This document shows, one piece after another, positions 2,325 to 62,179 of a DNA stretch of 64,000 nucleotides (positions within the stretch are counted from its first letter, which is position 1; every line of letters begins with the position of its first letter). The notes under the pieces are model-generated. The model was given only the letters and a program-made list of their open reading frames with translations. It ran no database searches and had not been told where the DNA came from. The position numbers were made by a program, and so were the translations under genes. Source of the stretch: Sphingomonas sp. NFR04 (lineage in GTDB: Bacteria; Pseudomonadota; Alphaproteobacteria; Sphingomonadales; Sphingomonadaceae); the NCBI RefSeq assembly GCF_900114095.1, contig NZ_FORV01000002.1, positions 62,001 through 126,000 on the forward strand. The letters are read 5' to 3'.

Positions 2325-2378
2325 ATGTGTGTCACTTACCACAGGTCGCAGCGAGAGCAAGTGGCAAGCGACACACAC
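2325..2378 (-). promoter_or_regulatory. Inverted pair of the phage-wide intergenic palindrome
   Basis: Copy one (2325-2344) reads CTGTGGTAAGTGACACACAT on the minus strand. Copy two (2359-2378) is the same motif on the plus strand (AAGTGGCAAGCGACACACAC). The two can fold as a 16-bp stem with two G-U pairs in minus-strand RNA. The pair lies between the stop at 2385 and the ribosome binding site of the next gene. There is no U-tract, so an operator or processing signal is more likely than a terminator. Confidence 0.6.
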
Positions 2379-2384
2379 AATGCA

Positions 2385-3251
2385 TTAGGCGGCGAGCTTC
2401 ACCAGCTCGGCGGCGAGGGCTTGGTCGGCGATCACCAGATCGCGGGGCGCGGTGGGCGACGGCTGGACGAGTCCGGTGATCTTGAACAGCGCCGTCATCT
2501 GCTGCGCTTGGGCGCGGGCGGTGCCGGTGGAGAGGTTTTCGCCCTCGTAGGCGGCCACGAGCGACTTGCCGCTGATCATGCCATCGGCAACCAGGCGACG
2601 GACCGCGACCGAGGTGTACCGCGAGAGGCGCTTGCCGGCGGCGATCGACTGGATGAGGTTCTGCGCCTTCTCCTGCACCTTCTTCGCGGCACAGGCGTCG
2701 AGGTTAGCCTTGAGCGTGGCGGGGTCGATCGCGGCGATCGAGTGGAAGTCGCGGGCGGGGGCGGGGGCCGCTGCCGGCGTGGTATTCGCGGCGATCTTCG
2801 GCTTGCGTGCGCTCTTCTGCTTGGCGGGCTTGGTGACGCTCTCGGCCGCTTCGATCTCGGCGAGCAGGGCGTCAGCGTCGTTGGCGATGACCTCGCTCAC
2901 ATCACCGCTGGCAACCTGGGCGGTCGCGCTCTCACCATCTGCGGGAGCTTGGAAGCCGAACTCGTCCTCTTCGGCTTCTTCCGCCGCGGCGAGCATGTCC
3001 TCGATCTCTTCGTTACCGGTGGCGACGTCGATCACGACGCTGGAGGGGGTGACGTCGATCGTGACCTCCTCGACGTCCGCGAGGCTCATGATCTCGTTCG
3101 TTTCGTCCATCTCGGCCTGGATCGCGGCGAGCGCCGCATCGACAGGATCTTCGAGGTCGGTGGCGACCACGAGTGCCGTGGTCGCCTGGGTGTTGTCAGC
3201 CGCGTCGGCGGCGGGCTTGGGGCTGCTGTTGCGGTTGCGCTTGCGGCTCAT
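2385..3251 (-). CDS. Hypothetical acidic protein, 288 aa
   Basis: The start is ATG 3251-3249 with ribosome binding site GAGGAGATCGACG. The basic N-terminus (MSRKRNRN) is followed by about 140 residues rich in A, E, D and V, an alanine/proline/lysine linker, and a helical C-terminal domain of about 120 residues (DACAAKKVQEKAQNLIQSIA onward). The acidic middle looks like a flexible spacer or DNA mimic. No family is recognised. The first 56 bases overlap the end of the upstream gene. Confidence 0.65.
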   Translation of the reverse strand: MSRKRNRNSSPKPAADAADNTQATTALVVATDLEDPVDAALAAIQAEMDETNEIMSLADVEEVTIDVTPSSVVIDVATGNEEIEDMLAAAEEAEEDEFGFQAPADGESATAQVASGDVSEVIANDADALLAEIEAAESVTKPAKQKSARKPKIAANTTPAAAPAPARDFHSIAAIDPATLKANLDACAAKKVQEKAQNLIQSIAAGKRLSRYTSVAVRRLVADGMISGKSLVAAYEGENLSTGTARAQAQQMTALFKITGLVQPSPTAPRDLVIADQALAAELVKLAA

Positions 3252-3618
3252 CGTCGATCTCCTCGTGCTCGACGCTCGATTGCGTCGTTGCAACCGAGAT
3301 AACCGCATCGTCGGTGCCGGTCGGCTGGCTTCCTGCGACCGGCTCGACGGCAGCCGAAGCCCGCGCGAGCTCGTAGCGGGCCGAAGCGATGTCGGTGCGG
3401 AGCATCTTGAGGCCCGCGAGCTCGTTGACATCCTCGCGGCCGACGATCTCCGCCACGACCTTGTCGTCGAGTTCGGCGAGGCGTTCGACCTTGTCCTCTT
3501 CCGACCCTTCGCCCAGGTCCCAGGCCAACAGCGCGCCTTCGCGCTTGACGATGTTCTGGTCGCCGAGGAGGGCGACCGCGGTGAGCGAGAGTTCGCCCGC
3601 GGAATGCTTGAACTTCAT
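3196..3618 (-). CDS. Hypothetical protein, 140 aa
   Basis: ATG 3618-3616 (MKFKHSAGELSLTAVALLGD) follows an AAGG ribosome binding site. The charged, helical N-terminal two thirds are followed by a Q/P/R-rich tail (EPQAQPQQQPQARRRRG). The tail is encoded where this gene overlaps the next one by 56 bases in another frame, so its low complexity may be a by-product of dual coding. Function unknown. Confidence 0.6.
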   Translation of the reverse strand: MKFKHSAGELSLTAVALLGDQNIVKREGALLAWDLGEGSEEDKVERLAELDDKVVAEIVGREDVNELAGLKMLRTDIASARYELARASAAVEPVAGSQPTGTDDAVISVATTQSSVEHEEIDDEPQAQPQQQPQARRRRG

Positions 3619-4581: not shown

Positions 4582-5240
4582 GCCGCTGCCCGATTGGCGA
4601 GGCCGAAGGTGGCTGCCACGAAGTCCGCCGCGGTCGCGATACGGTCGGCGCGGTCGGTGTTCTCGCGCAAGATGGTGCCGATCCGCGGCGCCATGTCCGC
4701 CAAGCTCTCATCGAAGAGCATGCCGCGCACCAGGAAATGGATATGCTCCTGGTAGGCGGCATTCATCGGCGGTTTGCCATCCATCGGCTCGAAGGTGATG
4801 GCCGGCGGGACCAGGATCACGAGATCGAAATGCTGAGCGGTGAGGCTGATGGCGCTCTCGACATACTGAACGCAGTCGTCGCGAACGCGAGGCGAGCCGG
4901 CCGCCGCCGAGGCATCGGCGAGGTAATAGGCGGCTGCATCGATCGGCGTTCGGTCGCACACGTAGCTCACCGGGCCGCCGTGCGCCTTGCTGAGCGCCGC
5001 GGACGCCTCGATCTGGCCCACCATGGCGTCCATGATGCGCCCCTGCATCACAGTGCCCGTGTTCAGGCGATTGTGTCGCTCCATGTCGAAGCCGTGAATT
5101 TCGGCAACAACGCCCGCCGAGCTGGACAAGAAGGGGACGTCGAAGAGCTTGGCGATGGCGCGGGCGAGGGTGGTCTTGCCCACGCGGTGAGCGCCAGCGA
5201 AGCCGATGCGCGTTCCGTTGAGGTGTGTGTTGTTCACCAT
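4578..5240 (-). CDS. P-loop NTPase, AAA_28 / nucleotide-kinase-like, 220 aa
   Basis: Walker A GAHRVGKTT lies near residue 16. The segment DRTPIDAAAYY is typical of AAA_28 and phage deoxynucleoside-kinase-like proteins, and DLVILVPP looks like the strand after it. ATG 5240-5238 has a good ribosome binding site (CTGGAGCGT). It sits among thyX, a Nudix gene and the ribonucleotide reductase genes, so phosphorylation of a nucleotide or sugar-nucleotide precursor is likely. The substrate cannot be read from the sequence. Confidence 0.72.
   Translation of the reverse strand: MVNNTHLNGTRIGFAGAHRVGKTTLARAIAKLFDVPFLSSSAGVVAEIHGFDMERHNRLNTGTVMQGRIMDAMVGQIEASAALSKAHGGPVSYVCDRTPIDAAAYYLADASAAAGSPRVRDDCVQYVESAISLTAQHFDLVILVPPAITFEPMDGKPPMNAAYQEHIHFLVRGMLFDESLADMAPRIGTILRENTDRADRIATAADFVAATFGLANRAAA
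5223..5239 (-). promoter_or_regulatory. Intergenic palindrome copy inside a coding start
   Basis: The minus strand reads TGGTGAACAACACACAC directly at the start codon of the P-loop gene, so the motif half GTGAACAACACACAC is translated. It is one of few copies not in a gap. It may be chance, or a binding site overlapping the translation start. Confidence 0.35.
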
Positions 5241-5249
5241 ACGCTCCAG

Positions 5250-6830: not shown

Positions 6831-6850
6831 GTGTGTGTCACTGCGCACAA
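6831..6850 (-). promoter_or_regulatory. Intergenic palindrome copy before thyX
   Basis: The minus strand reads TTGTGCGCAGTGACACACAC. It is located 38 bases upstream of the thyX start and just behind the nrdB terminator, where a new promoter would be expected. No clear -10 box follows. Confidence 0.55.
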
Positions 6851-6881
6851 CCTCTGTAAGAAGCTTCGACAGGTAACGCAA

Positions 6882-8954: not shown

Positions 8955-8986
8955 GTGCGCGTGTGCGTTAAGACACACACGCGCAC
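8955..8986 (-). promoter_or_regulatory. Intergenic palindrome copy forming an 11-bp hairpin
   Basis: The core at 8961-8980 reads GTGTGTGTCTTAACGCACAC on the minus strand and is extended by perfect flanking pairing (8955-8965 with 8976-8986). It lies between the nrdA stop and the next gene. The U-tract needed for a terminator is missing, so an operator is more likely. Confidence 0.6.
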
Positions 8987-11065: not shown

Positions 11066-11099
11066 ATTGTATCAGACGTGTGTGTGTCGGTCGACACAT
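11066..11099 (-). promoter_or_regulatory. nrdA promoter with overlapping palindrome
   Basis: The minus strand carries the palindrome ATGTGTCGACCGACACACAC (11080-11099) followed by an extended -10 element TGATACAAT (TACAAT at 11066-11071). A start about 7 bases further gives a leader of about 30 bases with a good ribosome binding site before nrdA. Confidence 0.72.
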
Positions 11100-11103
11100 T
11101 GCA

Positions 11104-12407: not shown

Positions 12408-14384
12408 TCAGATGATGCTGACGCTTGCCCGGCCGCCCGACTTCTCCACCTGGATCGTCTTGCGCGCGTAGGCCGCGATGTCGTTGTGGCTGATGACCAG
12501 GACAGTGCCGCGGTCGCGGGCCTTCTCTTCGAGCACGCCCATGAGGCGTTCGAGGCCGGCTGCGTCGAGTGCGTCGTCGATCTCGTCGCCCAACCAAAGC
12601 TCAAGGCTCTTGGTCGCCCGGGTTGCGACGAGATCCTGGAGCGCGAGCGCGCATGCGAGCCGCGCCTTGCGCTTCTCGCCGCCCGACAGGTTGTTGAAGC
12701 TCGGCGCGCTGCCCGGCTTCTCCACCGTCACCGAGAACTTCTCGACCAGCTGGCCCTTCTTCGTCTCGGAAAGCGTGGTCCAGAATGCATCGATCGCGCC
12801 GTCCGACAGGCTGCCGAGATAGTGTGCGGTCCGCTCGTTGAGGAAGGGCGTTGCCTCGTCCAAGCGATGGGCACGGACGCCGGCAGGCGCGAAGACGCCA
12901 GCAACAGCCTCGGCGTAACCAAGCTCTTCGGCCGCCTTCAGCAAAGACCCCTTGGACTTTTCGAGCTCGGCGGCGCGCGCGACGACCGTGTCGTCGGCAT
13001 CCTTCAGCATCTTGTTGAATGGGTTCTCGGCCGCAGCCTCATCCTTCCAACGCTTGCCGATGGTTTGGGCAGCGACGCGCAGGCGCTCGACTTCGGTTCG
13101 CGCCGCCTGGGCGATCTGAAGCTCGCGCTGCAGATTCTTCAGGCGAGCGCCCTCGGCTGACACGTCGGTCATGCTGGCGCGATGATCGTCCAGATCCTTC
13201 TGGGCGGCGGTGACCGCACGCTCGAATGCAGCGACCTTCGACTTGGCGGCGTCACGGTGAGCGATGCACTTGTCTCGGTCGGCCCTCTGCGCCTTGAGCT
13301 TGGTCTCGGCGTTGGCGATCGCGTCGGCGAGATGCTCCTCCTCCAGCGGACGACCGCAATCATCGCACGGCTGCCCCACGCCGTTCTTGGTCCGCTCCAG
13401 CGCCGCTTCCGCCGCGGAAACGGATCGATCAGCTGCCGCGGCAGTCGTTTCTTCGGACGCCAACCGGCGCTGGATTTGCGCAAGCGCCGACTGCGCCTGC
13501 GTAAGGTCGGCCGCGAGGTCACGCTCGCGCGCGACTTCGGACTGCACGGCTTCGATCTTCTCCTGCGCATCGACGATGTCTTCGCGGACCTTCTTCAGGC
13601 CATCATCGTCGAGCTCGGCCTTCGCCGTCTGGAACGCCTTCACAGCGGCGCCGGTCTGCGTCTTGAGCCCAGCGATCTTCGTGACCTGATCGGTGTCCCA
13701 TTGTGTCTTCTGGTCGTTCAGACGCTCTACAGACGCGAGCGCGTCGCGGTGACGCTCGGTTGCTCGGTCGAATGCGATTTGCGCTTGTGCGCGCGTCTCA
13801 GCGACCTTGCGCATGCGTTCGCGCGCGATCTCATACGCCCCGGCGAGCACGTCAACGCCGGCGGCCTGCTCCACGAGGAGCTTCAGCTGACGGTCCGTCA
13901 TGCGGGGGATGTCGGGCATCATTTCCTGCCCCGAGTAGACAGCGGCGTTGAACACTTCCTCGGAGCAGCCGAGCAAGCGCTCGATCGCCTTCTGGGTGAG
14001 GGCAGTGGTCCCCTTCGTCGCGTCAATCCATTCGCCGGTCGCGGCGTCATGGTGCGCGAGGTTGAGGCTATTCTTGCCCTTCGGGTGCTTCCGGTAGCGG
14101 GTGACCCGCCAGAAATCGCCGTCGTCATCGATGGTGATCGACACGAGGGCGCCCTTGCCGACGATGGTATTGACGATGTCGTCGCCCGAGACGCCGCGCG
14201 CCGTCGAGCCCCACAGGCACCAGCTGATCGCATCGCCGATGGAGCTCTTGCCAGATCCGTTGCTGTCGGCGCTGGTCTCGTCGTTGTTGATGCCCGAGAT
14301 GTGCGCCAGGCCGAGCGTGTCGAGGCTCAGCTTAGCCTCGCCGATCGCGAGCACGTTCTCGATCTGAACGTCGGTGAATTTCAT
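12408..14384 (-). CDS. Rad50/SbcC-like SMC-type ATPase, 658 aa
   Basis: This is the ATPase of a Mre11-Rad50-type nuclease (T4 gp46 equivalent). Walker A NGSGKSS is at residues 42-48, long alpha-helical arms follow, and a zinc hook CDDC (residues 340 and 343) sits between them. The ABC signature LSGGEK begins at about 566 and a Walker B-like WLGDEIDD follows. The protein is shorter than cellular Rad50, as usual for phages. It processes DNA ends for recombination-dependent replication. ATG 14384 overlaps the preceding stop. Confidence 0.92.
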   Translation of the reverse strand: MKFTDVQIENVLAIGEAKLSLDTLGLAHISGINNDETSADSNGSGKSSIGDAISWCLWGSTARGVSGDDIVNTIVGKGALVSITIDDDGDFWRVTRYRKHPKGKNSLNLAHHDAATGEWIDATKGTTALTQKAIERLLGCSEEVFNAAVYSGQEMMPDIPRMTDRQLKLLVEQAAGVDVLAGAYEIARERMRKVAETRAQAQIAFDRATERHRDALASVERLNDQKTQWDTDQVTKIAGLKTQTGAAVKAFQTAKAELDDDGLKKVREDIVDAQEKIEAVQSEVARERDLAADLTQAQSALAQIQRRLASEETTAAAADRSVSAAEAALERTKNGVGQPCDDCGRPLEEEHLADAIANAETKLKAQRADRDKCIAHRDAAKSKVAAFERAVTAAQKDLDDHRASMTDVSAEGARLKNLQRELQIAQAARTEVERLRVAAQTIGKRWKDEAAAENPFNKMLKDADDTVVARAAELEKSKGSLLKAAEELGYAEAVAGVFAPAGVRAHRLDEATPFLNERTAHYLGSLSDGAIDAFWTTLSETKKGQLVEKFSVTVEKPGSAPSFNNLSGGEKRKARLACALALQDLVATRATKSLELWLGDEIDDALDAAGLERLMGVLEEKARDRGTVLVISHNDIAAYARKTIQVEKSGGRASVSII

Positions 14385-14560
14385 CGCGTTTCCTTCTCGA
14401 TAAGGGAGGCTACCCGCTTCGTGATGCCTGGTTTGCCCTTCAGGCTTTGGAGGAGCGCCCTGCGGTTCCTGCGTGGGCTGGGATTGATGACCGGGCAGAA
14501 CTCCGGCTCCCAGGTGTGATGGTGGCTGCCGCCGCAGCACGGGCAGGGCGGAACCTCCAT
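14381..14560 (-). CDS. Small zinc-ribbon-like protein, 59 aa
   Basis: The gene is placed exactly between the Mre11-like and Rad50-like genes, with TGATG and ATGA overlaps. MEVPPCPCCGGSHHHTWEPE gives a C-x-CC, H, H and later C pattern that could bind one metal ion. The C-terminal half is basic. It may be a cofactor of the nuclease complex; that is inference from position. Confidence 0.6.
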   Translation of the reverse strand: MEVPPCPCCGGSHHHTWEPEFCPVINPSPRRNRRALLQSLKGKPGITKRVASLIEKETR

Positions 14561-16134: not shown

Positions 16135-16374
16135 TTACTGCTGGGCGGCCGACTGGCGTTCGCGACGGGCGATCTCCCGCGCGTCGCTATGCGGGTCGAG
16201 TGTGTGTCGGTTGGCACGCGACATGCGACCGAAGGCACCGGCGGGGACGCGTGCGAGCGACTTTTGCAGGCGCGTGGGTGCCGCGAACTGCTCGTTGAGC
16301 TTCTTGCCGGCGAGCTTCGCCTTGTGCGCCTCGAGGCGCTCGGCTTTGGTGGCGTTGTGCGGGAGGCGAGCCAT
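16135..16374 (-). CDS. Hypothetical basic protein, 79 aa
   Basis: ATG 16374-16372 shares a base with the TGA of the small membrane gene. The product (MARLPHNATKAERLEAHKAK) is lysine- and arginine-rich and helical, with a C-terminal REIARRERQSAAQQ. No family is recognised. It may bind nucleic acid. Its 3' part contains a copy of the phage-wide palindrome. Confidence 0.6.
   Translation of the reverse strand: MARLPHNATKAERLEAHKAKLAGKKLNEQFAAPTRLQKSLARVPAGAFGRMSRANRHTLDPHSDAREIARRERQSAAQQ
16200..16219 (-). promoter_or_regulatory. Palindrome copy inside the 3' part of a gene
   Basis: The minus strand reads GCGTGCCAACCGACACACAC. It is a good match to the consensus, but it sits in the coding region of the 79-aa gene, 75 bases before the next start codon. 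It may serve the gene at 15628-16125. Confidence 0.45.
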
Positions 16375-16506: not shown

Positions 16507-16526
16507 GTGTGTGTTGTTTAACACTC
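16507..16526 (-). promoter_or_regulatory. Intergenic palindrome copy
   Basis: The minus strand reads GAGTGTTAAACAACACACAC and includes the TAA stop of the upstream frame (16518). It lies 17 bases before the start of the 38-aa membrane gene. No -10 box is visible. Confidence 0.5.
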
Positions 16527-17024
16527 GACCTTGTTAGCGGTGCGTTTGCGCTTGCGCAAGCTGGGACCAAGAAATTTATTCGTGTAGCGCGTATACGGAA
16601 GCACCCGGTGCGCGCGGCCGCGATAGTCGGCCTTCGTGCGGTAAAGCTCGGCGTCATCGAAGTCATCGATCGGCGTCAGAAAGATCCGGCGCTGCTCCTC
16701 GACGACGACCATCACAACGGAGACGTTGTGCTGTGGCGCGCGGCGGAGCAGCTCTCGATCAACGCCGATGCCTGCTTCGCCTCTCTCGATCGCTTCGGCG
16801 ATTGACTTCGACCGGCCGCGCCAGATGTCACGCCCCTTCTGCTCCACGATCAGGAAGCGCGTCCCGCTGGGCGTCTCCATGATCTTGCCCTGCACCCTGG
16901 GCGCCACTTTCAGCAGCCCGATCCGCTTCATGCCCTGCGAGATAGGTCTCAGCATCTTCGACAGAGAGGCGTTGAAGGTAAATGGCGGTAATGCGGGTTT
17001 TTTCGTTGATGATGCGGGGGCCAT
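16518..17024 (-). CDS. Hypothetical protein, 168 aa or C-terminal part of a frameshifted gene
   Basis: The frame opens at ATG 17024 inside the upstream gene and overlaps it by 197 bases. From about MLRPISQGMKRIGLLKV onward it has strong G/C third positions and looks like genuine coding sequence. Before that the other frame looks more natural. There is no good ribosome binding site. It may be a separate gene with a late start, or the C-terminal half of the upstream protein reached by a +1/-2 shift near an A6 run. Function unknown. Confidence 0.5.
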   Translation of the reverse strand: MAPASSTKKPALPPFTFNASLSKMLRPISQGMKRIGLLKVAPRVQGKIMETPSGTRFLIVEQKGRDIWRGRSKSIAEAIERGEAGIGVDRELLRRAPQHNVSVVMVVVEEQRRIFLTPIDDFDDAELYRTKADYRGRAHRVLPYTRYTNKFLGPSLRKRKRTANKVEC

Positions 17025-17439: not shown

Positions 17440-17452
17440 GTATCATCTCCAT

Positions 17453-17492
17453 AAAAGAGCGCTCGCAAAGTGGTTAGACCTTGCGAGCGCTC
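17453..17492 (-). terminator. Rho-independent terminator
   Basis: A perfect 12-bp stem (17457-17468 with 17481-17492) has a 12-base loop and is followed on the minus strand by TTTTAT. It lies 23 bases behind the stop of the 66-aa gene that ends the recA-like operon. Confidence 0.85.
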
Positions 17493-17515
17493 GCTTCTAC
17501 TTGGCTTGTGGTGGC

Positions 17516-19736: not shown

Positions 19737-19759
19737 GGTATTCCTGTCGGGTAGAGGGT

Positions 19760-19788
19760 GCGGGGGAGGGCAACGCGCGCTCCCCCGC
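19760..19788 (-). terminator. GC-rich hairpin between the SSB-like gene and exonuclease
   Basis: A 9-bp stem (19760-19768 with 19780-19788) of G and C only. No U-tract follows, so termination is uncertain; mRNA stabilisation or partial termination behind the highly expressed SSB-like gene is also possible. The rest of this 107-base gap shows nothing further. Confidence 0.4.
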
Positions 19789-19843
19789 CTTCAATCGGCG
19801 GCCTGGGCCGCCCGCCTGGAGCCGAAGCCCCAGGCACCTTCCG

Positions 19844-20878
19844 TCATTCGAGGCCGGCGAGGATGTCGTCGATGTCGTCCGAGTCCGCGGCGGCCGGTGC
19901 CGGCTTGGCGGCGGGCTTCGAGGCCGGCTTGGCGGCGGGCTTCGCCGGTTCCGGCTCGGCTTCGGGCTCTTCGTCGACGACCGACGCGATCGCGGCGTCG
20001 AGATCGGCATCTTCGAAGTCGGCGTCCTCGACTGCCGGCGCTTCTTCCTCGTCCTCGTCGAGCACTTCGGTCACCGCCGCGGCGTTGGTCTTGCTCGCGG
20101 CAGCGGTGCCGCCCGCGTTGGTCAGGCGAGCCTGCGACGTCGACGACGCGCTCGTGATCGCTGCGGCAACGGTGATGCCCGCCGCGCCATTGATCTTGCC
20201 GAGGAACTCGAGCGCCTTGCCTTCGAGATTTTCGAACTGCGAGGCGATCCAGGCGTCGAGGTCGATCGCCTTCTCGAGGATCTTCGGCGTGAGCTTCGCC
20301 TTCTTCGGGGTCACCGTGAACTGGTACTTGGTGTCCATGCCCGAGCCCGATTTCTCGCACTTGAAGACGTGGCCGTTGTCGAGGCTGGCGATGTCGTAGT
20401 CAGGGTCTTCGTCGGTCCACGCCTCGAACTGCGACAGAATGCCGTCGAACGCACCTTCGCTGACCTCGATCAGCACCGGCTCGTTCGGCGCCTGATCCTT
20501 GTCGTCGAGGATGAGGGCGCAGAAGATCTCGCGCGGGCTGGCGAGCATCTTGCGGTAGTGCTCCTTCGTTTCCGCGTCCGGCGCCTGGCGCATGGCGTCG
20601 AAGAGCATCTCCTTGATCGGGTCACGCTCGCCATAGGTGATGTCGCGGTCACCGATGCCGAAGAAGCTCTGGCCGTCGAACGACTTGAGGTAGGTCTTGC
20701 CATACTTGCGCGAGAAGTCGCCCGAGACGGTCGGCGTGCCCGAGGTGTCCGGCGCCGGCAGAATGCGGAACTTGGTCTCGCCGTTCTTGAACTTGTAGGG
20801 GCGGAGACCCTTGCTGCGGTTGGCTGCGATCGCCTGCCGCTTCTGCTGGATCCGCTCGCGTGCGGTGAGTGCGCCCAT
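19844..20878 (-). CDS. Single-stranded DNA-binding protein-like, 344 aa
   Basis: ATG 20878-20876 starts MGALTARERIQQKRQ. The N-terminal 230 residues include a region of type LRPYKFKNGETKFRILPAPD, as in phage gp32-like proteins. It is followed by a long low-complexity A/E/P/K linker and the acidic tip DSDDIDDILAGLE, the typical protein-interaction tail of SSBs. Position directly before the exonuclease and RecA-like genes fits. Assignment rests on architecture and context, not on a unique motif. Confidence 0.72.
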   Translation of the reverse strand: MGALTARERIQQKRQAIAANRSKGLRPYKFKNGETKFRILPAPDTSGTPTVSGDFSRKYGKTYLKSFDGQSFFGIGDRDITYGERDPIKEMLFDAMRQAPDAETKEHYRKMLASPREIFCALILDDKDQAPNEPVLIEVSEGAFDGILSQFEAWTDEDPDYDIASLDNGHVFKCEKSGSGMDTKYQFTVTPKKAKLTPKILEKAIDLDAWIASQFENLEGKALEFLGKINGAAGITVAAAITSASSTSQARLTNAGGTAAASKTNAAAVTEVLDEDEEEAPAVEDADFEDADLDAAIASVVDEEPEAEPEPAKPAAKPASKPAAKPAPAAADSDDIDDILAGLE

Positions 20879-20912
20879 AATTCCTAATGCTCCTGTGTTC
20901 ACTTCGAATAGA

Positions 20913-21541: not shown

Positions 21542-21561
21542 ATGTGTGTTGTAACGCACGC
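21542..21561 (-). promoter_or_regulatory. Intergenic palindrome copy
   Basis: The minus strand reads GCGTGCGTTACAACACACAT, 21 bases upstream of the 183-aa gene and 10 bases behind the polymerase stop. No -10 box is visible. Confidence 0.5.
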
Positions 21562-26977: not shown

Positions 26978-26981
26978 TGGA

Positions 26982-44019: not shown

Positions 44020-44050
44020 ATTGTAGCATATGTGTGTTCCAGTCACCACA
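44020..44050 (-). promoter_or_regulatory. Leaderless promoter of the NlpC/P60 gene with palindrome
   Basis: The palindrome (44031-44050) reads TGTGGTGACTGGAACACACA on the minus strand. The extended -10 TGCTACAAT (TACAAT at 44020-44025) ends 6 bases before the ATG at 44013, so transcription would begin at or next to the A of ATG. Confidence 0.75.
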
Positions 44051-44692
44051 TTACAAGTTCATGCGAACCAGGCCTGTGAGCGCCCGAAAGTTGAGCAGGT
44101 TGCCCTTGACCGCGCACCCCCTAGGCCCGTCGCGGGTATAGTCGCAAACTGTCTCGGCGCCGGTGTATCCGCAGCCGTAGCCCCGGAAGCGCCATGCGCA
44201 GCTCGTCTTCGACTGCCGATGCTTGGGAAAGGCGATGTTGAGAAGGTTCTCGGCGCCGAGGGTGAAGCTGACCGCGTAATCCTTCACGCTGGAGGTGACG
44301 ATCTGGAACCTCTCCTCGAACTCGACAGGGCGATCCAGCCGCGCTGTGTTGAGCACGATCATGACCGCCTCGGAGAAGATGCCGCCGGCCATCTCTTCCA
44401 TGCGACGCTGAATGAAGCCGGTCTGATCCTGCGCCTCGATGGAGACCGAGGGAGCCTCATTCTGTTTCTGGTCGACATTGAGGCTGAAATTGCCCGCCAG
44501 GAACACGCGCGGCTTTCCGTCGCCATCCACCCCGAACACGATGTTCTCAGGGTTGCGGGCGATGCGGATGGTGTCGACCGTCTGCCGCGTGTTCGGATTG
44601 ACGATGTTGACCTCGAGGAGAATGACCCAGGCCGTGTCAGACGAAACCTTGTTCTTGTCGATCACGCTCGCGACGGAAAGCTGGCGGCCCAA
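44051..44692 (-). CDS. Minor tail protein, lambda L-like, 213 aa
   Basis: The C-terminal region CAWRFRGYGCGYTGAETVC, followed by one more cysteine, matches the four-cysteine (iron-sulfur in lambda gpL) pattern of minor tail protein L. The N-terminal domain is beta-rich. It assembles the tail tip. The start is TTG 44692, with GAGG 7 bases upstream inside the end of the preceding gene; no ATG fits better. Confidence 0.83.
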   Translation of the reverse strand: MGRQLSVASVIDKNKVSSDTAWVILLEVNIVNPNTRQTVDTIRIARNPENIVFGVDGDGKPRVFLAGNFSLNVDQKQNEAPSVSIEAQDQTGFIQRRMEEMAGGIFSEAVMIVLNTARLDRPVEFEERFQIVTSSVKDYAVSFTLGAENLLNIAFPKHRQSKTSCAWRFRGYGCGYTGAETVCDYTRDGPRGCAVKGNLLNFRALTGLVRMNL

Positions 44693-49650: not shown

Positions 49651-49670
49651 GTGTGTGTTGGTTAGGACTT
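49651..49670 (-). promoter_or_regulatory. Palindrome-like copy before the tape measure gene
   Basis: The minus strand reads AAGTCCTAACCAACACACAC, including the stop codon of the GT frame. It matches only the right half of the consensus well. Confidence 0.35.
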
Positions 49671-50356
49671 GCCGGAGGCAAAGCGATCCCGCAGCTCGTC
49701 GAACTTGGCCTCATCGAACTTCTTCTCGACCACCACCGGGCTATCGAGCTCCAGTCGGAGCGACTCCACCAGTGCCGTGACGGGCTCTTTGCTCTGCGCC
49801 GCGGCGGTGATCAGGAGTCGAAAGGTTCGCTGGTCGCGCTCGGCACGGATGCGATCGATCTGGCGATTGTACGACCAGAAGGTGCGAAGCGGGAGCTTCA
49901 AGACTTCCCGGTAGCTCATGCCGTATTCAGCGGAGACACGAGCTACGAAGAACGGGAAGTCGATCTGCTTTAGCTCTGCTCCGCCACCTCGTTTCCCACC
50001 GTGACGCCTTCACCGGCGTCGGGCGAGGACACTTCGTTGATCTTGGAGCTCATATCGTTGAGCCAGCCGAAGATCGTGAAGAGCGAGGGGGTGGGGAGCT
50101 CGCCGACCGGCAGCGTCGGAAAGAACTCCTGGATGCTGTCTCGGATCATCGAGACGACTTCGACCATGTCCTGGTCGCCGATCGCTTCGGCGTCGGCCAC
50201 CATCTGCTGCTGCTTCATCGCTCGCTTCTGCTGCTCGATGAAGCCGTCGACGTCGAGCACCTTCATGTAATGAGACGTGCCCTTGTGCTTCACTGCGATG
50301 TCGGAGACGTCGTGCTCGAGGTCGTCCAGGTTCAGGATTTTCGGTTCGTTGCCCAT
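49662..50356 (-). CDS. Tail assembly chaperone fusion GT by -1 frameshift, 231 aa
   Basis: Codons 1-122 are those of the G-like protein; at the heptamer 49991-49997 the ribosome can slip back one base, giving 109 more residues (RGGGAELKQIDFPFFVARVS and on) up to the stop at 49662. The extension frame is open across the junction and contains the typical basic helical T part. In lambda-like phages the G/GT ratio controls tail assembly around the tape measure encoded next. The ATG at 49919 is internal and not needed. Confidence 0.83.
49970..50356 (-). CDS. Tail assembly chaperone G-like, 128 aa
   Basis: Zero-frame product of the chaperone gene. It begins MGNEPKILNLDDLEHDVSDI and has a long helical middle with KRAMKQQQMVADAEAIGDQD and an acidic C-terminus. 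It binds the tape measure during assembly and is absent from the virion in lambda. It is encoded between the tail tube and tape measure genes, the conserved position. Confidence 0.82.
   Translation of the reverse strand: MGNEPKILNLDDLEHDVSDIAVKHKGTSHYMKVLDVDGFIEQQKRAMKQQQMVADAEAIGDQDMVEVVSMIRDSIQEFFPTLPVGELPTPSLFTIFGWLNDMSSKINEVSSPDAGEGVTVGNEVAEQS
49991..49997 (-). promoter_or_regulatory. -1 ribosomal frameshift heptamer GGGAAAC
   Basis: The minus strand reads GTG GGA AAC in the G frame; the heptamer G-GGA-AAC fits X-XXY-YYZ, allowing both tRNAs to re-pair on GGG AAA. It is placed 18 bases before the zero-frame stop, like the lambda G-T site GGGAAAG. Confidence 0.82.
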
Positions 50357-50385
50357 GGTAACTCTTGCTGCTGTGTGGAGGGTGA

Positions 50386-50408
50386 GGGGAGGGGCACTGC
50401 CCCTCCCC
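50386..50408 (-). terminator. Strong hairpin behind the tail tube gene
   Basis: A 10-bp stem GGGGAGGGGC/GCCCCTCCCC with a 3-base loop, 8 bases behind the tube stop. No U-tract follows. It probably protects the 3' end of the abundant tube mRNA or gives partial termination before the chaperone gene. Confidence 0.5.
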
Positions 50409-50415
50409 AGGCTGG

Positions 50416-50960: not shown

Positions 50961-50992
50961 ATCATACCATAAGTGTGTGTCACTTGCCACAC
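50961..50992 (-). promoter_or_regulatory. Tail tube promoter with palindrome
   Basis: The palindrome (50973-50992) reads GTGTGGCAAGTGACACACAC on the minus strand, the best consensus copy. It is followed by extended -10 TGGTATGAT (TATGAT at 50961-50966), identical to that of the major capsid gene. The leader is about 24 bases with a Shine-Dalgarno. Confidence 0.78.
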
Positions 50993-50999
50993 GCTTGGA

Positions 51000-54359: not shown

Positions 54360-54386
54360 AGAATATGTGTGTGCCACATCGCACAC
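54360..54386 (-). promoter_or_regulatory. Palindrome copy followed by a weak -10 box and a terminator
   Basis: The palindrome (54367-54386) reads GTGTGCGATGTGGCACACAC on the minus strand, then TATTCT (54360-54365). A transcript starting here would run into the terminator at 54313-54348 before reaching the next gene. Confidence 0.5.
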
Positions 54387-54393
54387 ACAAGAA

Positions 54394-55334: not shown

Positions 55335-55379
55335 ATCATACCAAATGCCGACTGTGTGTGCAAGCACACACAGTCGGCA
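55335..55379 (-). promoter_or_regulatory. Major capsid promoter under a perfect 16-bp palindrome
   Basis: The palindrome arms (55346-55361 and 55364-55379) pair perfectly around AA. On the minus strand TTGCAC (55358-55363) at its centre is a -35 box, followed after 17 bases by extended -10 TGGTATGAT (TATGAT at 55335-55340). The leader is about 32 bases. A protein bound to the palindrome would cover the -35 box. Confidence 0.78.
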
Positions 55380-56176: not shown

Positions 56177-56196
56177 GTGTGTACCATAACACACAT
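56177..56196 (-). promoter_or_regulatory. Intergenic palindrome copy before the scaffold gene
   Basis: The minus strand reads ATGTGTGTTATGGTACACAC. It sits between the spike terminator and the scaffold ribosome binding site. No convincing -10 box follows. Confidence 0.55.
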
Positions 56197-56247
56197 GCCG
56201 TTTTGTTGGAAGGCTGTGCGCTGACATGGCTCGTCCGCGCGCGCTCC

Positions 56248-56319: not shown

Positions 56320-59300
56320 TCAGACGAGCGGCAGGCGGGATTCCACCCGCGCCCACCAGTCCCGAAGGCTCAGGATGTCGAAGAGGCCGGCCGCGCACCC
56401 CGCGGCGAGCCGCTGCACGAGCTGGTTGAAGTTGTCGTCGTTCTGGGCGGGTCCGTAATGCATATAGCACACCAGGTCTTTACCACCGTCGATTGCGTCC
56501 AGGACCTCGGCGTAGGCCTTGTCGACAAGATTGGTGCTACCGCCTGCTGCCGTGGTGTCGTCGAACGATGCGGCCGGGCAGCGAATGGCGAAGTAGGGGT
56601 CAAGGCCGTAGCCAGTGTAAACGCCATTGCCGCTGCCGGCCGAGCCCATGCGCCCGAACTTATAGCCCGCGCCAAGAAGCGCGTCCTCCATCTTGCCGAT
56701 TTGGAAGGCAGCGTCCTTGAGGTGGAAGTTGGCAAGGCCGCCGGTGATCGCCGGCACATTGCCCGACATGGTAACGGTTCCGGTGGCGCCTTCGACGTCG
56801 ACCGACAGAATGGTAAGTCCATCCGGCACGCCCAAAGCGAACATCGTCATGCCAGGCACGAGGTAGGTCGTGTCCACGTTCGTGAGCTGCGCCGTGCCAC
56901 TGGCGGTGTAGGTCACCCCCCTGCGCGAGGCTGAGAAGTAGCACGTTCGCGAAGCCCCGGCCGGGATTGCCCGGTCGAAAACCAGGTCGACCTGCGACCG
57001 CCCGTTGCGCTTCATCTGAAGCAGAACAGGGTTGCCCGAGGCGCCCGTGTTCTTCACAACCATGCCGGCGGCGATACCTTGGTTTACAATGGTGTTCGCC
57101 AACGTGATCGTGCTCGTCCCGTTCGGCGTCAACGCGATCGCGTGATTGGGCGCGCCGCCGCCGCCCCAATACGTCCCCGCGCCGAACGACCAACAGAACA
57201 GCTTTGCGTCGTCAGCGTTCGAGAAACCACCCGCGATTGCGCGGTCGCGCAGGGCGTTCAGTTGCTCGACGGCCGCAGCTGGCGAGGTGAACATCGTGAA
57301 GGACTCGTCAGCGGGGCCGCTGTCGAGACTCCACGTCCACCCATAGTCGTTCCTGAGCGACAGAGCCTGGGCGGCGGTTAGATTCGTGGCGCCGTTGGTG
57401 CTCAACACGTCCTGGCAGAGGAAGCCGGTGCCCACGAACGGGTAGGGCATTCCAGCTGCGATGCCCGCGGCCTTCATAGCCGGCGCCGCCTTAGTGATCT
57501 GGCCGACGTTGCCGTCATCGAAAGTCAGGACGATCGCAGGCTTGATCCGCTGCGGGCGGATCAGCGCATCCACCTTCACCGAAGCGTTTTTGTTGCCAAG
57601 GTTCTGCAGCTGAAGCGCAAGCTGCTTCGTGCCAGCCCCTGCGTCCGTCAGCTTTGCGCCAGTCCATGAGCCGCCAGCGCGCAAGCGCGAAGCTTTGAAG
57701 GTCAGCCATCGCTTGCCACGATTGTACGGGTAAAAGTCGGTATTGGGCGCGAGGCCAGAGGCGGGGTCGAACGACGGGATGTAGGTCTGCCCGTTGGTCG
57801 TGAGGCGCAAGACGGCAGCATACAGGGAGGTGTTGTACACATCCATGCCGACATCGATGCAAACGCCGATCAGGTCCCAGCTGGCGGGATCATCGTTCGC
57901 GCCGATGCTCGGGGTCGTGAGCGACGGAAGGTTGACGCCCAGCATGTTGACCTGCACCGCGCCGGTGCCCTGCACGACAGGCCCAACGACCTGCATCGAT
58001 GCGCCGCTGCTCACGGTGCGGGAGCCGAGCGTATCGAAGCCGTCGAGCAGCGTGTACGGCGTCATGGTCGCGACCGGCGTGGTGGGAACGAACGCACCAA
58101 TGCTGGCAGCCGCGCCCTTGGTGGCATACCGCGCGATATAGTCTGCCTTCCGTGCCGCGATGTCTGTCAGGCCGCTATTGCCCGACCCAGTGGGATACGG
58201 GTTCGCGAAGATCGCCTGGTGATCGGTGAAGGCTTTCATGTTGGCCAGGTTGCCCTGGTTGGTGAGCTTCGCGGCCCCTGTGATGGTGGCCGTGATCGGC
58301 CCCGCGCAGACGTTCCCCGTCACGACGAGATCGCCATACACCCCAGTGACATTGATCGCCGGGATCGAGCCCGCAAGAGTCGGGTCGATCAGGTCGAGCG
58401 CGCTCGGATCGTTGATGGCCGTGTTGTTGCGAACGTAGATGTTCACGCCGACCGCGCCTGCGACATTGCCGCTCGAGTCCTTCACCACCATCGCGATGCT
58501 GTTGGCGTTCGACGTCTGGAAGCAGTTATTCTCGATGTAGATGTTCTGGTAGGTCGGTCCGGTAGCGTTCCACGGCCCAGCGAACACGCCGTGCAGGCCG
58601 GCATAGCCGCCGTCTCCACCATTGCCGCGGATGATCATGTTGCCACGCACGATCAGATCGCCGAGCACCGGCCCCGTCGTCGTGGTGGTCGAGAGGGTGT
58701 TGATCTGCACGAAATCGGGGTGCGCCTGGCTGCCGGCCGGCGTCAGCTTGTCGATCACAAGGTTGTTCGTGACGGTGACGCTGCCCGCGTTCGTGAACTG
58801 CATCCCATCCTCACCCATGTTGATGAAGGTGTTCGCGTCGACGAGAATGTTGTTCGACTGCGTGCCGTTCACGCCCATGGCAATGTTCGTCGCGAGGTTC
58901 TTGAACGTGTTATTGCGGATCGTCACATTCTGAACGGCACCGTTCTTGAGGATACCGTAGCTGTAGGTGGACGAGTCATCCACCTCGAAGCGGTTATTCT
59001 CGACGATGTAGTTGTCGCCGGTGAAACGGACGCACTCGACGCCGGGTCCTGAGAGCAGGCTCGTCCAGCGCAGGCCGCGGAGCGCGAAGCCTCCCGCGAT
59101 GAAGAAGTTGCTGATCGTCGCCTTGTAGACGTTGTCAGCCGTGAGCACGGCATGGTTGCTCCCGGAGAACGTGCCGGTGGGCGCAGCGATCCTGGGTCCG
59201 GTCGTCCCCTGCGAAGCGTAGTTGCCATTGCGAAGGATGACCGTCTCGCCATAGGCCGCACCATGCGCCGCAAGCTCTGCCGCAGTTGCTACGTGGCGAG

Positions 59301-60501
59301 CGTTGCTGACCGTGACCACGCTGGCCGTCACGGCCCAGCCGGCGCCATCCGATACGCGCAGGCTGTACGAGGCCGCGAGCGCCGGGGGAGCAGCGCCTGC
59401 GGTGCCTGCGAGCACGAGCTTATTGTTGACGATGGTGAAGAGGCCGCCCGCGTCACCCCCGACGATCGCCGGCGTGCCCGAGCCGGAATACCCCAGGTCG
59501 AAAGCACCCATCCCGCGGCGGGTATTCGCGCCCAGCGGAACCGTGAGGGTCGCATCGTCGTCATTGAGGATCGTGCCAGCGCTGGTGACGGTGCCGATAC
59601 CAGGCACGAAGACGGTGATGATGAAGTTTTCGTTCGGCTCGACCTTCATGTCGCCGATCACCTTCACGGTGACAGTCTTGACGCTCTCGTTGGCAGCGAA
59701 AAGATCGGCGCCGGTCACCTGCACGACATCATCGGCGCTGATCGGGTTGGTGGCGCCGGGCGTCACTGCCCAGGTGAAGGGTGCAGGGCCAACAAAGCCA
59801 TCGCGCTTGAGCGTGACGGTGTAGACGAACGATGTCGTGCCGCTGTTGCCTTCGGGCAGCTCGATCGGATCCGAAATCGAAAGCGTCGGATTTGCCGGGA
59901 TCGGCGGAACGACCTCGAGCGAGCCGAGCACGACGCCGGTCAGGTCGCTGCTCGCAAGCAGCTCGCCCTTCTTGTTGCGGCCGATCGTTTGATAGCCGAT
60001 CCGATAGCCACGATCTTCGCGCGAGAAGCGGTAATCGGTGACGTCGGGATAGCTGATGACGGTATAGCCGTCGGTACCCGCCCGCACCCACCGGCCGCCG
60101 GCACGAACGCCGCCGGTGATATTCGCGTCGATAGCCGAAACGAGATCGCCGACGCGGGGGCTCGAGGGAGCGGTTAGCGTGGGCTTCGACGAGGCGACCG
60201 GAAGCGAAGCCGCCGTGATGGTGATCTTCAGTTCCGTCTGCTGCCGCGGCGTCTGCGCATCAGGGTTCCATTCCTCGACAATGATCGAGAACTTCTTCAC
60301 CTGGTCCGGCAGAACCTCGAGGCGGTTGACCTTGAGCTCGGTACCGACGAGCTTCACTCGACTGCCAGCGCTATCGATCAGCCTCAGCTTCCCGCCGGCG
60401 CTGACGTTCTGGATGGTGCCGATGGGCGTATCGGGGGCCGCCCCTTCGGCGATGGTGGCGGCGCTGAGCACGAGCGGCACCAAGGGCGCGATAAAGCTCA
60501 C
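56320..60501 (-). CDS. Multidomain spike: Calx-beta, beta-helix, deacetylase-like, 1393 aa
   Basis: GTG 60501 overlaps the portal stop (GTGA). Residues 204-316 form a Calx-beta domain (LPEGNSGTTSF; EPNENFIITVFV; ILNDDD). About 415-720 is a right-handed beta-helix with repeated N-x-x-x-x-NN/N-T-F turns (VTIRNNTFKNLATNIAMG). The C-terminus resembles polysaccharide deacetylases: TFDDG at 993-997. The second NodB motif HSxxH is not visible (WTWSLDSGP instead), so catalysis is doubtful. Probably a polysaccharide-binding or degrading spike, although its place in the head module is odd. Confidence 0.72.
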   Translation of the reverse strand: MSFIAPLVPLVLSAATIAEGAAPDTPIGTIQNVSAGGKLRLIDSAGSRVKLVGTELKVNRLEVLPDQVKKFSIIVEEWNPDAQTPRQQTELKITITAASLPVASSKPTLTAPSSPRVGDLVSAIDANITGGVRAGGRWVRAGTDGYTVISYPDVTDYRFSREDRGYRIGYQTIGRNKKGELLASSDLTGVVLGSLEVVPPIPANPTLSISDPIELPEGNSGTTSFVYTVTLKRDGFVGPAPFTWAVTPGATNPISADDVVQVTGADLFAANESVKTVTVKVIGDMKVEPNENFIITVFVPGIGTVTSAGTILNDDDATLTVPLGANTRRGMGAFDLGYSGSGTPAIVGGDAGGLFTIVNNKLVLAGTAGAAPPALAASYSLRVSDGAGWAVTASVVTVSNARHVATAAELAAHGAAYGETVILRNGNYASQGTTGPRIAAPTGTFSGSNHAVLTADNVYKATISNFFIAGGFALRGLRWTSLLSGPGVECVRFTGDNYIVENNRFEVDDSSTYSYGILKNGAVQNVTIRNNTFKNLATNIAMGVNGTQSNNILVDANTFINMGEDGMQFTNAGSVTVTNNLVIDKLTPAGSQAHPDFVQINTLSTTTTTGPVLGDLIVRGNMIIRGNGGDGGYAGLHGVFAGPWNATGPTYQNIYIENNCFQTSNANSIAMVVKDSSGNVAGAVGVNIYVRNNTAINDPSALDLIDPTLAGSIPAINVTGVYGDLVVTGNVCAGPITATITGAAKLTNQGNLANMKAFTDHQAIFANPYPTGSGNSGLTDIAARKADYIARYATKGAAASIGAFVPTTPVATMTPYTLLDGFDTLGSRTVSSGASMQVVGPVVQGTGAVQVNMLGVNLPSLTTPSIGANDDPASWDLIGVCIDVGMDVYNTSLYAAVLRLTTNGQTYIPSFDPASGLAPNTDFYPYNRGKRWLTFKASRLRAGGSWTGAKLTDAGAGTKQLALQLQNLGNKNASVKVDALIRPQRIKPAIVLTFDDGNVGQITKAAPAMKAAGIAAGMPYPFVGTGFLCQDVLSTNGATNLTAAQALSLRNDYGWTWSLDSGPADESFTMFTSPAAAVEQLNALRDRAIAGGFSNADDAKLFCWSFGAGTYWGGGGAPNHAIALTPNGTSTITLANTIVNQGIAAGMVVKNTGASGNPVLLQMKRNGRSQVDLVFDRAIPAGASRTCYFSASRRGVTYTASGTAQLTNVDTTYLVPGMTMFALGVPDGLTILSVDVEGATGTVTMSGNVPAITGGLANFHLKDAAFQIGKMEDALLGAGYKFGRMGSAGSGNGVYTGYGLDPYFAIRCPAASFDDTTAAGGSTNLVDKAYAEVLDAIDGGKDLVCYMHYGPAQNDDNFNQLVQRLAAGCAAGLFDILSLRDWWARVESRLPLV

Positions 60502-62138
60502 TTATTCAATTCCTTCTCCTTGTCGGGCGCCTTCACGGACCCTTGATTGTTTTCGCCCTGGCTGTTTCGCTTGCCGGGGACGCGGCCCTTTCCGAGGGTT
60601 GGCTGGGCAGAGAGTGCAGACGCGGCATCGATCACGGGCTCTTCGAGCCAGTCGTTCTCGATGTCGTCTTGGATCTCCTTGAGATCTGCTTCCGAAGCTT
60701 GCGGGAACATCTTCTCGGACAGCCGCGCCATCTGCTTGCGGCGGAGCTTCTTCGGAGCGTTCATCACGGAGAGACGCTGCGCATTGTCCATTTCGTCGGC
60801 GAGGTTGCGCACGTCGAATGTCTGCGGGTAGCTGACGAGCTCCTCGGTATCCTGGAGCTCCTCGACATCGCCGGACCAGGCGTTCACCAGGCGCACCAGG
60901 TTGTGCTCGACGTTCTGAAGCGACCGCGCCTTCGCGGCGAGCATCGCGTTGATCTTCTCGAAATCGTAGGCCTTGGCGACGCCGCTGGAATTGTCGATGC
61001 CGGTGGCGTTGTCTTCCTTCGTCCGTTCGCCGGCCATGCCGATCGAGTGATAGATCTCGCCGACGATCTTGGTGACGGCCTTGAGGATCAGCTCGGGCTG
61101 GCTGACGTCAGGCGAGATGTACGTGGGGGCGGCGCCACCCTCGGCGTTGTAGCCGAACACGCGCTTGGTCCCCATGACCTGCATGTTCGACATCTGATCC
61201 TGGTCGATATCGCTGTCGTCACCGGCGCCGCCCTCGGTGGGCAGCATGCCCTGAAACGGGATTGCCAGCTGCGAGAAGGTCTGATCCGTGACGATCACGT
61301 CGAGACAGGACAGGTAATTCGCGACCGTCCGGTCCATATAGGCAACGTCTTCGACCAGCCCGTCGACCTTGTAGAGCTCGTCCGAGGTGATGTGGTCGGC
61401 GGGGAAGATCGGGACGATGCCCAGGCCGTGCTCACGCACGGACGCCAGATCGAGCTCTGCGGTGCGCTCACGCCCCTTCTTCGCGACCTTGATGACCGCG
61501 GTGAAATCCTTGGTCCAAAGCCGGAACTGCTCGGTCACATCGCCGGAGGAGGTGAGGGGGTTCGCGTCGTCGCGCGCGAACTCGCCGTTCATGAACCATT
61601 CGAGCTCGCCGTCTTCATCGAAGGCGTAGTCGTAGGCCTGCATCGGCTTGATGAAGTATGCGTAGATGCGCCCCTTGGCGGCCTTGCGGTCAGCTTCGGT
61701 GACGACATCTGCGGGGATCGAATTGTCGACCACGACCCAGAGCCGACCGAAGGTGCTCGACCACTTCGCGATCGATTCCATCAGGTCGCAGATGGGGCGC
61801 TTCAGCAGCGTGGCTGCGCCCCAGAACTCCTTGACCGCCGGCGGCAGCTCTTCGCTCCGCGCGATCGCGCCCTTGAAGACGTACTTGTTGACGAGGCCGA
61901 CGACCTCCTTGGAGTGCGGGAAGCGATATGCGCGCTTCTTGCGCTCCGCGAACTCCTTGCGGCCCTCCTTTGGGTAGGTGAAGAGGTTCTTCTCGATCCA
62001 CGAGCGGCCGCCGCGGTAGCACGCTTCCAGGAAACGCCAGTGGTCGAGGTTTTCCTTGAACTCGGGGTGCCGGCGATCGATCAGCTTCAAGAGCTGCTCG
62101 GACGATGCTGCTTTCAGCGCGGAGAGATCGACAGACAT
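60498..62138 (-). CDS. Portal protein, 546 aa
   Basis: The portal is the dodecameric DNA gate at the head vertex. N-terminal ASSEQLLKLIDRRHPEF, a central AYDYAFDEDGELEWFM region and long C-terminal helices (FEKINAMLAAKARSLQNVEH) agree with siphovirus portals of this size; position directly behind the large terminase supports it. ATG 62138 lies 6 bases from a -10 box without Shine-Dalgarno, so the transcript is predicted leaderless. An in-frame extension through the palindrome is rejected. Confidence 0.85.
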   Translation of the reverse strand: MSVDLSALKAASSEQLLKLIDRRHPEFKENLDHWRFLEACYRGGRSWIEKNLFTYPKEGRKEFAERKKRAYRFPHSKEVVGLVNKYVFKGAIARSEELPPAVKEFWGAATLLKRPICDLMESIAKWSSTFGRLWVVVDNSIPADVVTEADRKAAKGRIYAYFIKPMQAYDYAFDEDGELEWFMNGEFARDDANPLTSSGDVTEQFRLWTKDFTAVIKVAKKGRERTAELDLASVREHGLGIVPIFPADHITSDELYKVDGLVEDVAYMDRTVANYLSCLDVIVTDQTFSQLAIPFQGMLPTEGGAGDDSDIDQDQMSNMQVMGTKRVFGYNAEGGAAPTYISPDVSQPELILKAVTKIVGEIYHSIGMAGERTKEDNATGIDNSSGVAKAYDFEKINAMLAAKARSLQNVEHNLVRLVNAWSGDVEELQDTEELVSYPQTFDVRNLADEMDNAQRLSVMNAPKKLRRKQMARLSEKMFPQASEADLKEIQDDIENDWLEEPVIDAASALSAQPTLGKGRVPGKRNSQGENNQGSVKAPDKEKELNK

Positions 62139-62144
62139 CGCGCC

Positions 62145-62179
62145 AGTATATCTGAAACTGTGTGTGTTGTCACCCACAC
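62145..62179 (-). promoter_or_regulatory. Leaderless portal promoter with palindrome
   Basis: The palindrome (62160-62179) reads GTGTGGGTGACAACACACAC on the minus strand. GTGACA inside it (62168-62173) is 17 bases before TATACT (62145-62150), and only GGCGCG separates TATACT from ATG 62138. Confidence 0.78.

Follow-up and report, generated by a model that had tools for sequence, protein, structure and literature searches.

Dispersed palindromes in an integrated SSU5-type prophage of Sphingomonas: candidate operators of a phage-encoded repressor

The DNA analysed here (the window) is a stretch of 64,000 nucleotides from Sphingomonas sp. NFR04, and covers bases 62001-126000 of a contig (C16) that is 855,747 bases long and belongs to a genome of 4.77 Mb. 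It is the middle part of an integrated prophage of about 109.5 kb, 45.5 kb of which lies beyond the window. Coordinates prefixed with C16 refer to the contig; all others refer to the window. A palindromic repeat of 20-22 bp recurs in the gaps between the genes of this element. Sequence comparison indicates that the repeats are very probably the dispersed operators of a phage-encoded, autoregulated prophage (immunity) repressor, the product of 29849-30424.

The prophage and its repeats

The prophage is integrated in tRNA-Glu. Identical 40-bp repeats of the tRNA-Glu 3' end flank it (C16:26707 and C16:136215), and a tyrosine integrase gene (C16:134924-136084) adjoins the repeat. A second, different tyrosine integrase gene lies just outside the left attachment site (C16:25307-26542), so another element may have inserted beside the prophage. 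The portal protein has 41-46% identity, and the DnaE-like polymerase 35-41% identity, to those of SSU5, Cyrano and phages of Klebsiella, Pseudomonas and Rhizobium. With the matches to CobT-like and CobS-like genes, these shared genes place the element, as judged by homology, among the relatives of SSU5-type phages and phage-plasmids. SSU5 and Cyrano are phage-plasmids according to the available parts of the sources (PMC11652158, PMC9928086), whereas the present copy sits in the chromosome. Among the relatives found, a contig of Candidatus Sphingomonas excrementigallinarum is the closest (portal 80% identity); a portal search of 298 genomes of the host's own family gave one match, the window's own, and no further relative.

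The repeat has a consensus, read in the direction of the genes, close to GCGTGTGnnAAnTGACACACAC; the downstream half of the palindrome is better conserved. A position weight matrix (PWM) was trained on the 28 positions listed in the initial annotation, and sites were counted at a score of at least 15. Gene calls were made by a simple script, and gap and start coordinates are approximate. Twenty-seven of the 28 listed copies reach the threshold. The remaining copy, at 40002, scores below 8, but a looser pattern matches at 40000-40017. The element holds 46 sites in all, 27 at the listed positions and 19 elsewhere. The matrix was trained on the very sites proposed, so support must come from independent tests. 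In unseeded dyad counts, 21 of 69 intergenic gaps contain TGTG-N8-CACA, where 0.4 would be expected. This dyad is absent from the six top dyads listed for coding sequence and from the five listed for the host flanks, which as two sequences only are a weak control. The host flanks (52.5 kb) contain no PWM site scoring at least 15. Over the whole 4.77 Mb genome the loose pattern has 19 matches, 18 of them within the element; the reversed pattern, used as a control, has none.

Forty of the 46 sites are intergenic, three overlap a gene start and one a gene end. Two lie within predicted open reading frames (ORFs): 16200, in a doubtful gene call, and C16:134802, which scores 15.9. It had been claimed that nearly every gap holds a site; 23 of the 28 window gaps of at least 25 bp do, and five are empty. 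Three of the empty gaps had been named correctly (17440-17515, 19737-19843 and 50357-50415), and the present gene calls add two more (14384-14560 and 49919-49970). The shared orientation that had been noticed is borne out, with 38 of the 46 sites agreeing with the downstream gene, four opposite and four ambiguous. Equal density in coding sequence and lack of conservation in relatives had been named as outcomes that would speak against the repeat; the sites are nearly all intergenic, and they are kept in relatives. The element thus has many similar, almost wholly intergenic, phage-limited sites, as dispersed operators should be. The sites in the window and the candidate gene are as follows.

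29849-30424, minus strand: predicted prophage repressor, 191 amino acids, Cro/C1-type helix-turn-helix (HTH), from homologues and fold class
2325-2346, minus: predicted operator, PWM score 25.5
2357-2378, plus: predicted operator, second in the gap of the 2325 site, inverted, 25.0
5223-5244, minus: predicted operator overlapping a predicted gene start, 27.2
6831-6852, minus: predicted operator, 21.5
8959-8980, plus: predicted operator, 23.0
11080-11101, minus: predicted operator, 21.8
16200-16221, minus: predicted operator within the doubtful ORF, 26.1
16507-16528, minus: predicted operator, 28.9
20913-20934, minus: predicted operator upstream of the single-strand-binding protein gene (19844-20902, PHROG), 21.5; 5/12 relatives
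21542-21563, minus: predicted operator, 24.8
25544-25565, minus: predicted operator, 20.3
26916-26937, minus: predicted operator upstream of the CobS-like ATPase gene, 28.8; orthologue site in 12/13 relatives
26960-26981, minus: predicted operator, 21.7
29725-29746, minus: predicted operator between the repressor and CobT-like genes, 25.5
30609-30630, minus: predicted operator upstream of the repressor gene, 18.3; the longest-ORF start, 30511, is 108 bp away
33108-33129, minus: predicted operator upstream of the DnaB-like helicase gene, 29.5; 8/13 relatives
34804-34825, plus: predicted operator upstream of the PhoH-like gene, 19.9; 10/12 relatives
35369-35390, minus: predicted operator, 22.1
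36397-36418, minus: predicted operator, 23.1
39973-39994, minus: predicted operator, 20.4
40000-40017, minus: weak operator-like site beside the 39973 site, loose pattern only, below 8
44032-44053, minus: predicted operator, 19.7
49651-49672, minus: predicted operator upstream of the tape-measure gene, 22.8; 7/13 relatives
50973-50994, minus: predicted operator upstream of the Ig-domain/tail gene, 28.4; 10/12 relatives
54367-54388, minus: predicted operator, 24.6; 6/13 relatives
55354-55375, minus: predicted operator upstream of the major head protein gene, 18.3; 10/13 relatives
56177-56198, minus: predicted operator, 21.5
62160-62181, minus: predicted operator upstream of the portal gene, 27.1; 12/13 relatives

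The candidate repressor and the repeats of related phages

The initial annotation suggested the product of 29849-30424 as the binder, and this appears to be the best candidate: it is an HTH protein, and its Cyrano homologue, CYRAN_45, is annotated as a 'putative repressor'. Thirteen of 15 members of its family match PHROG 8 (phrog_8), a transcriptional regulator family, and six match Pfam HTH_3 at E<=0.01; the window protein itself matches phrog_8 at E 3e-4 and falls below the Pfam cut-off. The family carries a Cro/C1-type HTH domain (lambda-repressor-like, HTH_3/XRE). An AlphaFold2 model of the protein shows a helical HTH domain (pLDDT about 90 over the HTH). Its Foldseek list includes Stl-complex, lambda CI N-domain and C-protein chains; the lambda CI chains have TM scores to target of 0.6-0.7 (E about 0.2-0.5), among them 1lmb at 0.67 (E about 0.2). 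No match has E<=0.001, so the model gives the fold class only. CYRAN_45 has 35% identity over the HTH and likewise lies near a cobT-like gene. In the Cyrano lysogen it is expressed 10-fold above the prophage median and is among the 14 genes at least 5-fold above it, and ciprofloxacin induces Cyrano 39-fold, according to the available part of the report (PMC9928086).

Relatives were compared in a set of 31 genomes: 21 SSU5-type records, nine prophage contigs from named hosts, and the element. The 21 records, used whole or nearly so, come from 30 candidates; nine were left out, short fragments among them. X66 lacks its last 445 bases, and G312 and G316 are represented by contigs of 57-58 kb. There are 24 named-host loci; 22 genomes were searched for the repressor, two were left out, and the prophage contigs of nine were used. 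A homologue (E<=1e-6) is present in 21 of the 22 searched. Near-duplicates in the set are RHEph10, Y2_11 and N1_10, and X66 and V1VFA-S; G300 and Roseospira share an identical HTH.

A homologue of the 29849-type repressor is present in 25 of the 31 genomes, the element included. When the PWM of the element is scanned in distant relatives, almost nothing is found; their palindromes have other sequences and came to light only through de novo discovery. Discovery was unbiased, on intergenic sequence, and was followed by a scan of the whole genome, with three Markov nulls per genome. Each of the 25 genomes that carry the repressor gene has a dispersed palindrome scoring above its own three nulls (467-1333 versus 82-439), with 22-56 mostly intergenic sites. 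With these de novo motifs, intergenic sites make up 38 of 38 in X66, 42 of 42 in both V1VFA-S and G305, 50 of 56 in G301, 41 of 47 in Phyllobacterium, 50 of 55 in Candidatus Sphingomonas and 46 of 50 in the element. The weakest cases are Morganella, little above its AT-rich null (576 versus at most 439), and Xenorhabdus, which is moderate (467 versus 255). The Morganella repressor match (G326:C34:24123-24470) has one internal TGA; an open ORF, 24066-24449, covers the HTH.

Six genomes lack the repressor gene. ANB28, G317, G306 and G310 score near their nulls, ANB28 just above (205 versus 183), and the partial contig G316 is weakly positive (201 versus 129). The sixth, SSU5, has a clear motif with 33 sites, 31 of them intergenic. 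The Cyrano segment of about 4 kb which contains the integrase gene CYRAN_44, CYRAN_45 and CYRAN_46 is missing from SSU5, and a tblastn search of SSU5 for the repressor finds no remnant. SSU5 was isolated as a plaque-forming phage. Lytic growth therefore does not depend on the protein, as would be expected of a repressor but not of an activator. SSU5, Cyrano and pJN2-26 also have a second palindrome, AAACA-N3-TGTTT, dispersed over 13, 11 and 13 intergenic places, with 1, 0 and 1 copies inside coding sequence; it frequently precedes a start codon by about 20 bp.

The positions of the sites are conserved. Among orthologous genes compared with Candidatus Sphingomonas, 29 have a site in both, two in the element only, six in the relative only and 53 in neither (p 2e-15); 29 of 31 comparable positions in the element are thus shared, and the association holds (p 0.003) when only gaps of at least 20 bp are counted. 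For 12 distant phages with other motifs the odds ratios are 3.6-22, with p<0.05 in ten. The most constant positions are those before the CobS-like and portal genes (12 of 13 relatives each), the terminase-small-subunit-like gene (11 of 12), the gene at C16:130169, a helicase by eye (12 of 12), the major head gene (10 of 13) and the PhoH-like gene (10 of 12). Upstream of the repressor ORF, at a distance of 29-236 bp, 24 of the 25 repressor-bearing genomes have a predicted site. The co-occurrence of the sites with a gene for a putative DNA-binding repressor, and their positional conservation, support the earlier proposal of a single regulator for the whole phage, here one that would be phage-encoded.

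The palindromes fall into several sequence types. TAAGTAAGT/ACTTACTTA is found in X66, V1VFA-S, SSU5 and Ancylobacter, and similar forms occur in Cyrano, pJN2-26, G303 and G308. TAAGTCAGT/ACTGACTTA is found in G312, with similar forms in G301, Faunimonas and Magnetospirillum; TAAATCAAT/ATTGATTTA is found in RHEph10, N1_10 and Phyllobacterium, with similar forms in Y2_11, G300 and Roseospira. G305 has TAACTAA..TTAGTTA, the element and Candidatus Sphingomonas have GTGTGTGT..ACACACAC (the GTGT type), and G315 has a palindrome of shorter spacing. Many half-sites resemble a repeated 4-bp unit. The recognition regions of the two GTGT-type phages are almost identical (KTAVVLSHMAAGR / KTSVVLSHMALGR) and differ from those of the 23 other aligned homologues. 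The pattern KT.VVLSHMA.GR occurs only in these two of the 25; at its Val, 22 of the others have Asn and one has Gln.

Repression, its mode and the alternatives

In a lysogen, the repressor would bind the dyads before structural, packaging and replication genes and keep these genes silent. It would probably bind each dyad as a dimer, and it would also bind upstream of its own gene in putative autoregulation. Related phages have homologous repressors with other operators, so the sequence of the operator may work as the immunity type. Expression in the Cyrano lysogen, as given in the available part of the report (14 expressed genes versus 109 others; PMC9928086), agrees with this in direction, with weak power: at the level of operons, a site precedes two of the 14 expressed genes and 53 of the 109 others (p 0.013; p 0.04-0.05 with the SSU5 PWM).

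Several results weigh against operators of the 29849-30424 repressor. Gene by gene, the Cyrano comparison is not significant: a site lies directly upstream of one of 14 expressed genes and 24 of 109 others (p 0.17), or of two of the 14 with the SSU5 PWM (p 0.36-0.39), and among genes with gaps of at least 20 bp in two of nine versus 25 of 72 (p 0.37). Cyrano is also the exception to the site upstream of the repressor; its nearest site is 1367 bp away. When only gaps of at least 20 bp in both genomes are compared, positional conservation reaches p<0.05 in two of the 12 distant phages, in small tables. Several of the 25 repressor-bearing genomes are near-duplicates, so the 25 are not independent cases. 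Over 15 representative genomes, one of 133 repressor columns, adjoining the conserved Gly of the HTH, tracks base -4 of the palindrome (information 0.86), but eight of nine control proteins also have a column at 0.8-1.0. The distance between motifs correlates with that between repressors (Mantel 0.57; 0.24 given portal, p 0.013), but equally with that between DnaB proteins (0.58; 0.28 given portal, p 0.012); these tests used 22 of the 25 genomes, without Morganella, by choice, and without two that lacked an orthologue. Finally, the element has an S24 repressor with palindromes of its own, which could be the master switch. The coevolution tests support the repressor as the binder without singling it out, and covariation at the level of residues is only suggestive. 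By eye, an acidic residue after the HTH glycine goes with C at -4 and a basic residue with A in 18 of 25 genomes; two genomes with Thr are split, and the element, Candidatus Sphingomonas, G315, Xenorhabdus and Morganella were left out. A firm residue-to-base code was given up after the nine control proteins reduced this rule to a merely suggestive one.

How the repressor would act at its sites, by blocking initiation, by a roadblock to elongation or by both, bears on the most serious alternative. In this, the sites are strict stoperators, as in the Cluster A mycobacteriophages, and a repressor bound in the gaps mainly roadblocks elongating RNA polymerase. Sites occupy most gaps in long runs of co-directional genes (23 of the 28 counted above) and largely share one orientation. 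Their distance to the start codon varies (median 43, interquartile range 27-68), and at some sites, uncounted, a terminator-like hairpin seen by eye lies between the two; these features leave room for a roadblock. Known stoperators, as described in the available part of the source, are asymmetric (PMC6550527), whereas the present sites are palindromic. Furthermore, sigma-70-like promoters directed toward the gene (at least nine of 12 matches) are enriched at the sites in three of four genome groups over a mirrored control: 47 versus 19, 73 versus 24 and 17 versus 0, with 28 versus 21 only in the enterobacterial group. This enrichment favours promoter occlusion. A fixed -10 position was also considered and was not adopted; the peak at +7 is only modestly above the mirror and comes partly from the motif's own TA, so enrichment is claimed and no fixed promoter architecture. 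The sites are therefore no less likely to act as ordinary operators than as stoperators. The resemblance to stoperators that had been pointed out thus applies to dispersed sites of one orientation and not in the strict sense, for which the probability is rather low.

The S24 (LexA/CI-type) repressor, encoded beyond the window at C16:45744-46457, is unlikely to bind the sites in place of the 29849-30424 protein. S24 domains are common in LexA/CI-type repressors, and this protein is above the Pfam Peptidase_S24 cut-off. However, two different palindromes of the GCGGTC..GACCGC type lie just upstream of its gene (45663 and 45705), no GTGT-type site scoring at least 8 does, and across genomes the dispersed sites accompany the 29849-type HTH gene, the only one of the two repressor genes surveyed in the relatives. 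Three further GCGGTC..GACCGC-type dyads occur elsewhere in 165.5 kb. The S24 gene is on the strand opposite to its neighbours; its product may run a separate local switch and is a possible second immunity switch.

Slightly less probable still is a role in activation, with the sites serving a phage regulator as activator sites or promoter elements for middle or late transcription. They do lie before lytic genes with promoter-like sequence around them, but SSU5 forms plaques without the gene. The Cyrano homologue is also one of the highly expressed lysogen genes already mentioned, in the available text of PMC9928086. Palindromes can form hairpins and host regulators often bind prophages, but a host-encoded global regulator or nucleoid protein, or hairpins acting in RNA, can be set aside as highly improbable, as 18 of 19 loose matches in the genome are within the element, the motif varies with the type of phage, and the dyad mismatches have no excess of G-U (401 versus 490 A-C; 348 versus 355 without the two GTGT-type genomes).

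The repressor reading also admits a more speculative extension, offered tentatively. Each half-site of the operators of SSU5-type phages, which would share one repressor family, may be made up of two 4-bp units in tandem (TAAG-TAAG, TCAG-TCAG, TGTG-TGTG), and the 22-56 sites per genome may act as promoter operator and roadblock together. Repressors on many sites might also bridge the prophage and so form a silenced domain, and the letters of the half-site would be a readable immunity code that a few residues of the recognition helix determine.

Other features of the prophage include a Fic/Doc-family gene (C16:32966-33613), possibly for an addiction or modification protein, a tRNA-Trp (CCA) gene within the phage (36512-36592, plus strand), and a region, 56320-60501, encoding a 1393-amino-acid protein without a PHROG match.

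Known systems and implications for SSU5-type phages

Dispersed repressor operators are already known, in the available parts of the sources, from P1, the Cluster A mycobacteriophages and SPbeta. P1 has one C1 repressor and 22 scattered operators with a 17-bp asymmetric consensus (PMC8546580). The likeness lies in one repressor with many operators scattered over the genome of a temperate phage or phage-plasmid; the present sites differ in being palindromic, 20-22 bp long, 22-56 per genome and unrelated in sequence. Cluster A (L5) stoperators are 13-bp asymmetric sites, up to 30 in number, which block elongation, and D29 is lytic through deletion of its repressor (PMC6550527). Many sites, mostly in one orientation, with a motif that diverges together with the repressor, are common to both systems, and D29 parallels SSU5. 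The present sites are instead palindromes in a promoter-like context, in SSU5-type phages of Proteobacteria. The SPBRE repeat of SPbeta was likewise an intergenic element first seen in silico, and was later shown to be the site of the master repressor MrpR (PMC10516654). MrpR is folded like a tyrosine recombinase, and its motif, of 15 bp, is found at about ten promoters, whereas the present candidate is a small Cro/C1-type HTH protein. Cyrano has the homologue CYRAN_45, but its predicted operators are of the TAAGTAAGT/ACTTACTTA type, unlike the GTGT type of the element; the available part of PMC9928086 mentions no operators for CYRAN_45. Searches of the open literature gave no account of such sites or of the operators of this repressor in SSU5-type phages, and no description of genome-wide control of lysogeny in them.

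Many Proteobacteria harbour SSU5-type phages and phage-plasmids. If the reading of the repeats as repressor operators is true, a repressor family and its matching operators, in 25 of 31 genomes, would explain both the silencing of these prophages and the lytic growth of SSU5. Immunity groups would be predictable from sequence, and the family would offer a natural series of repressor-operator pairs for studies of recognition.

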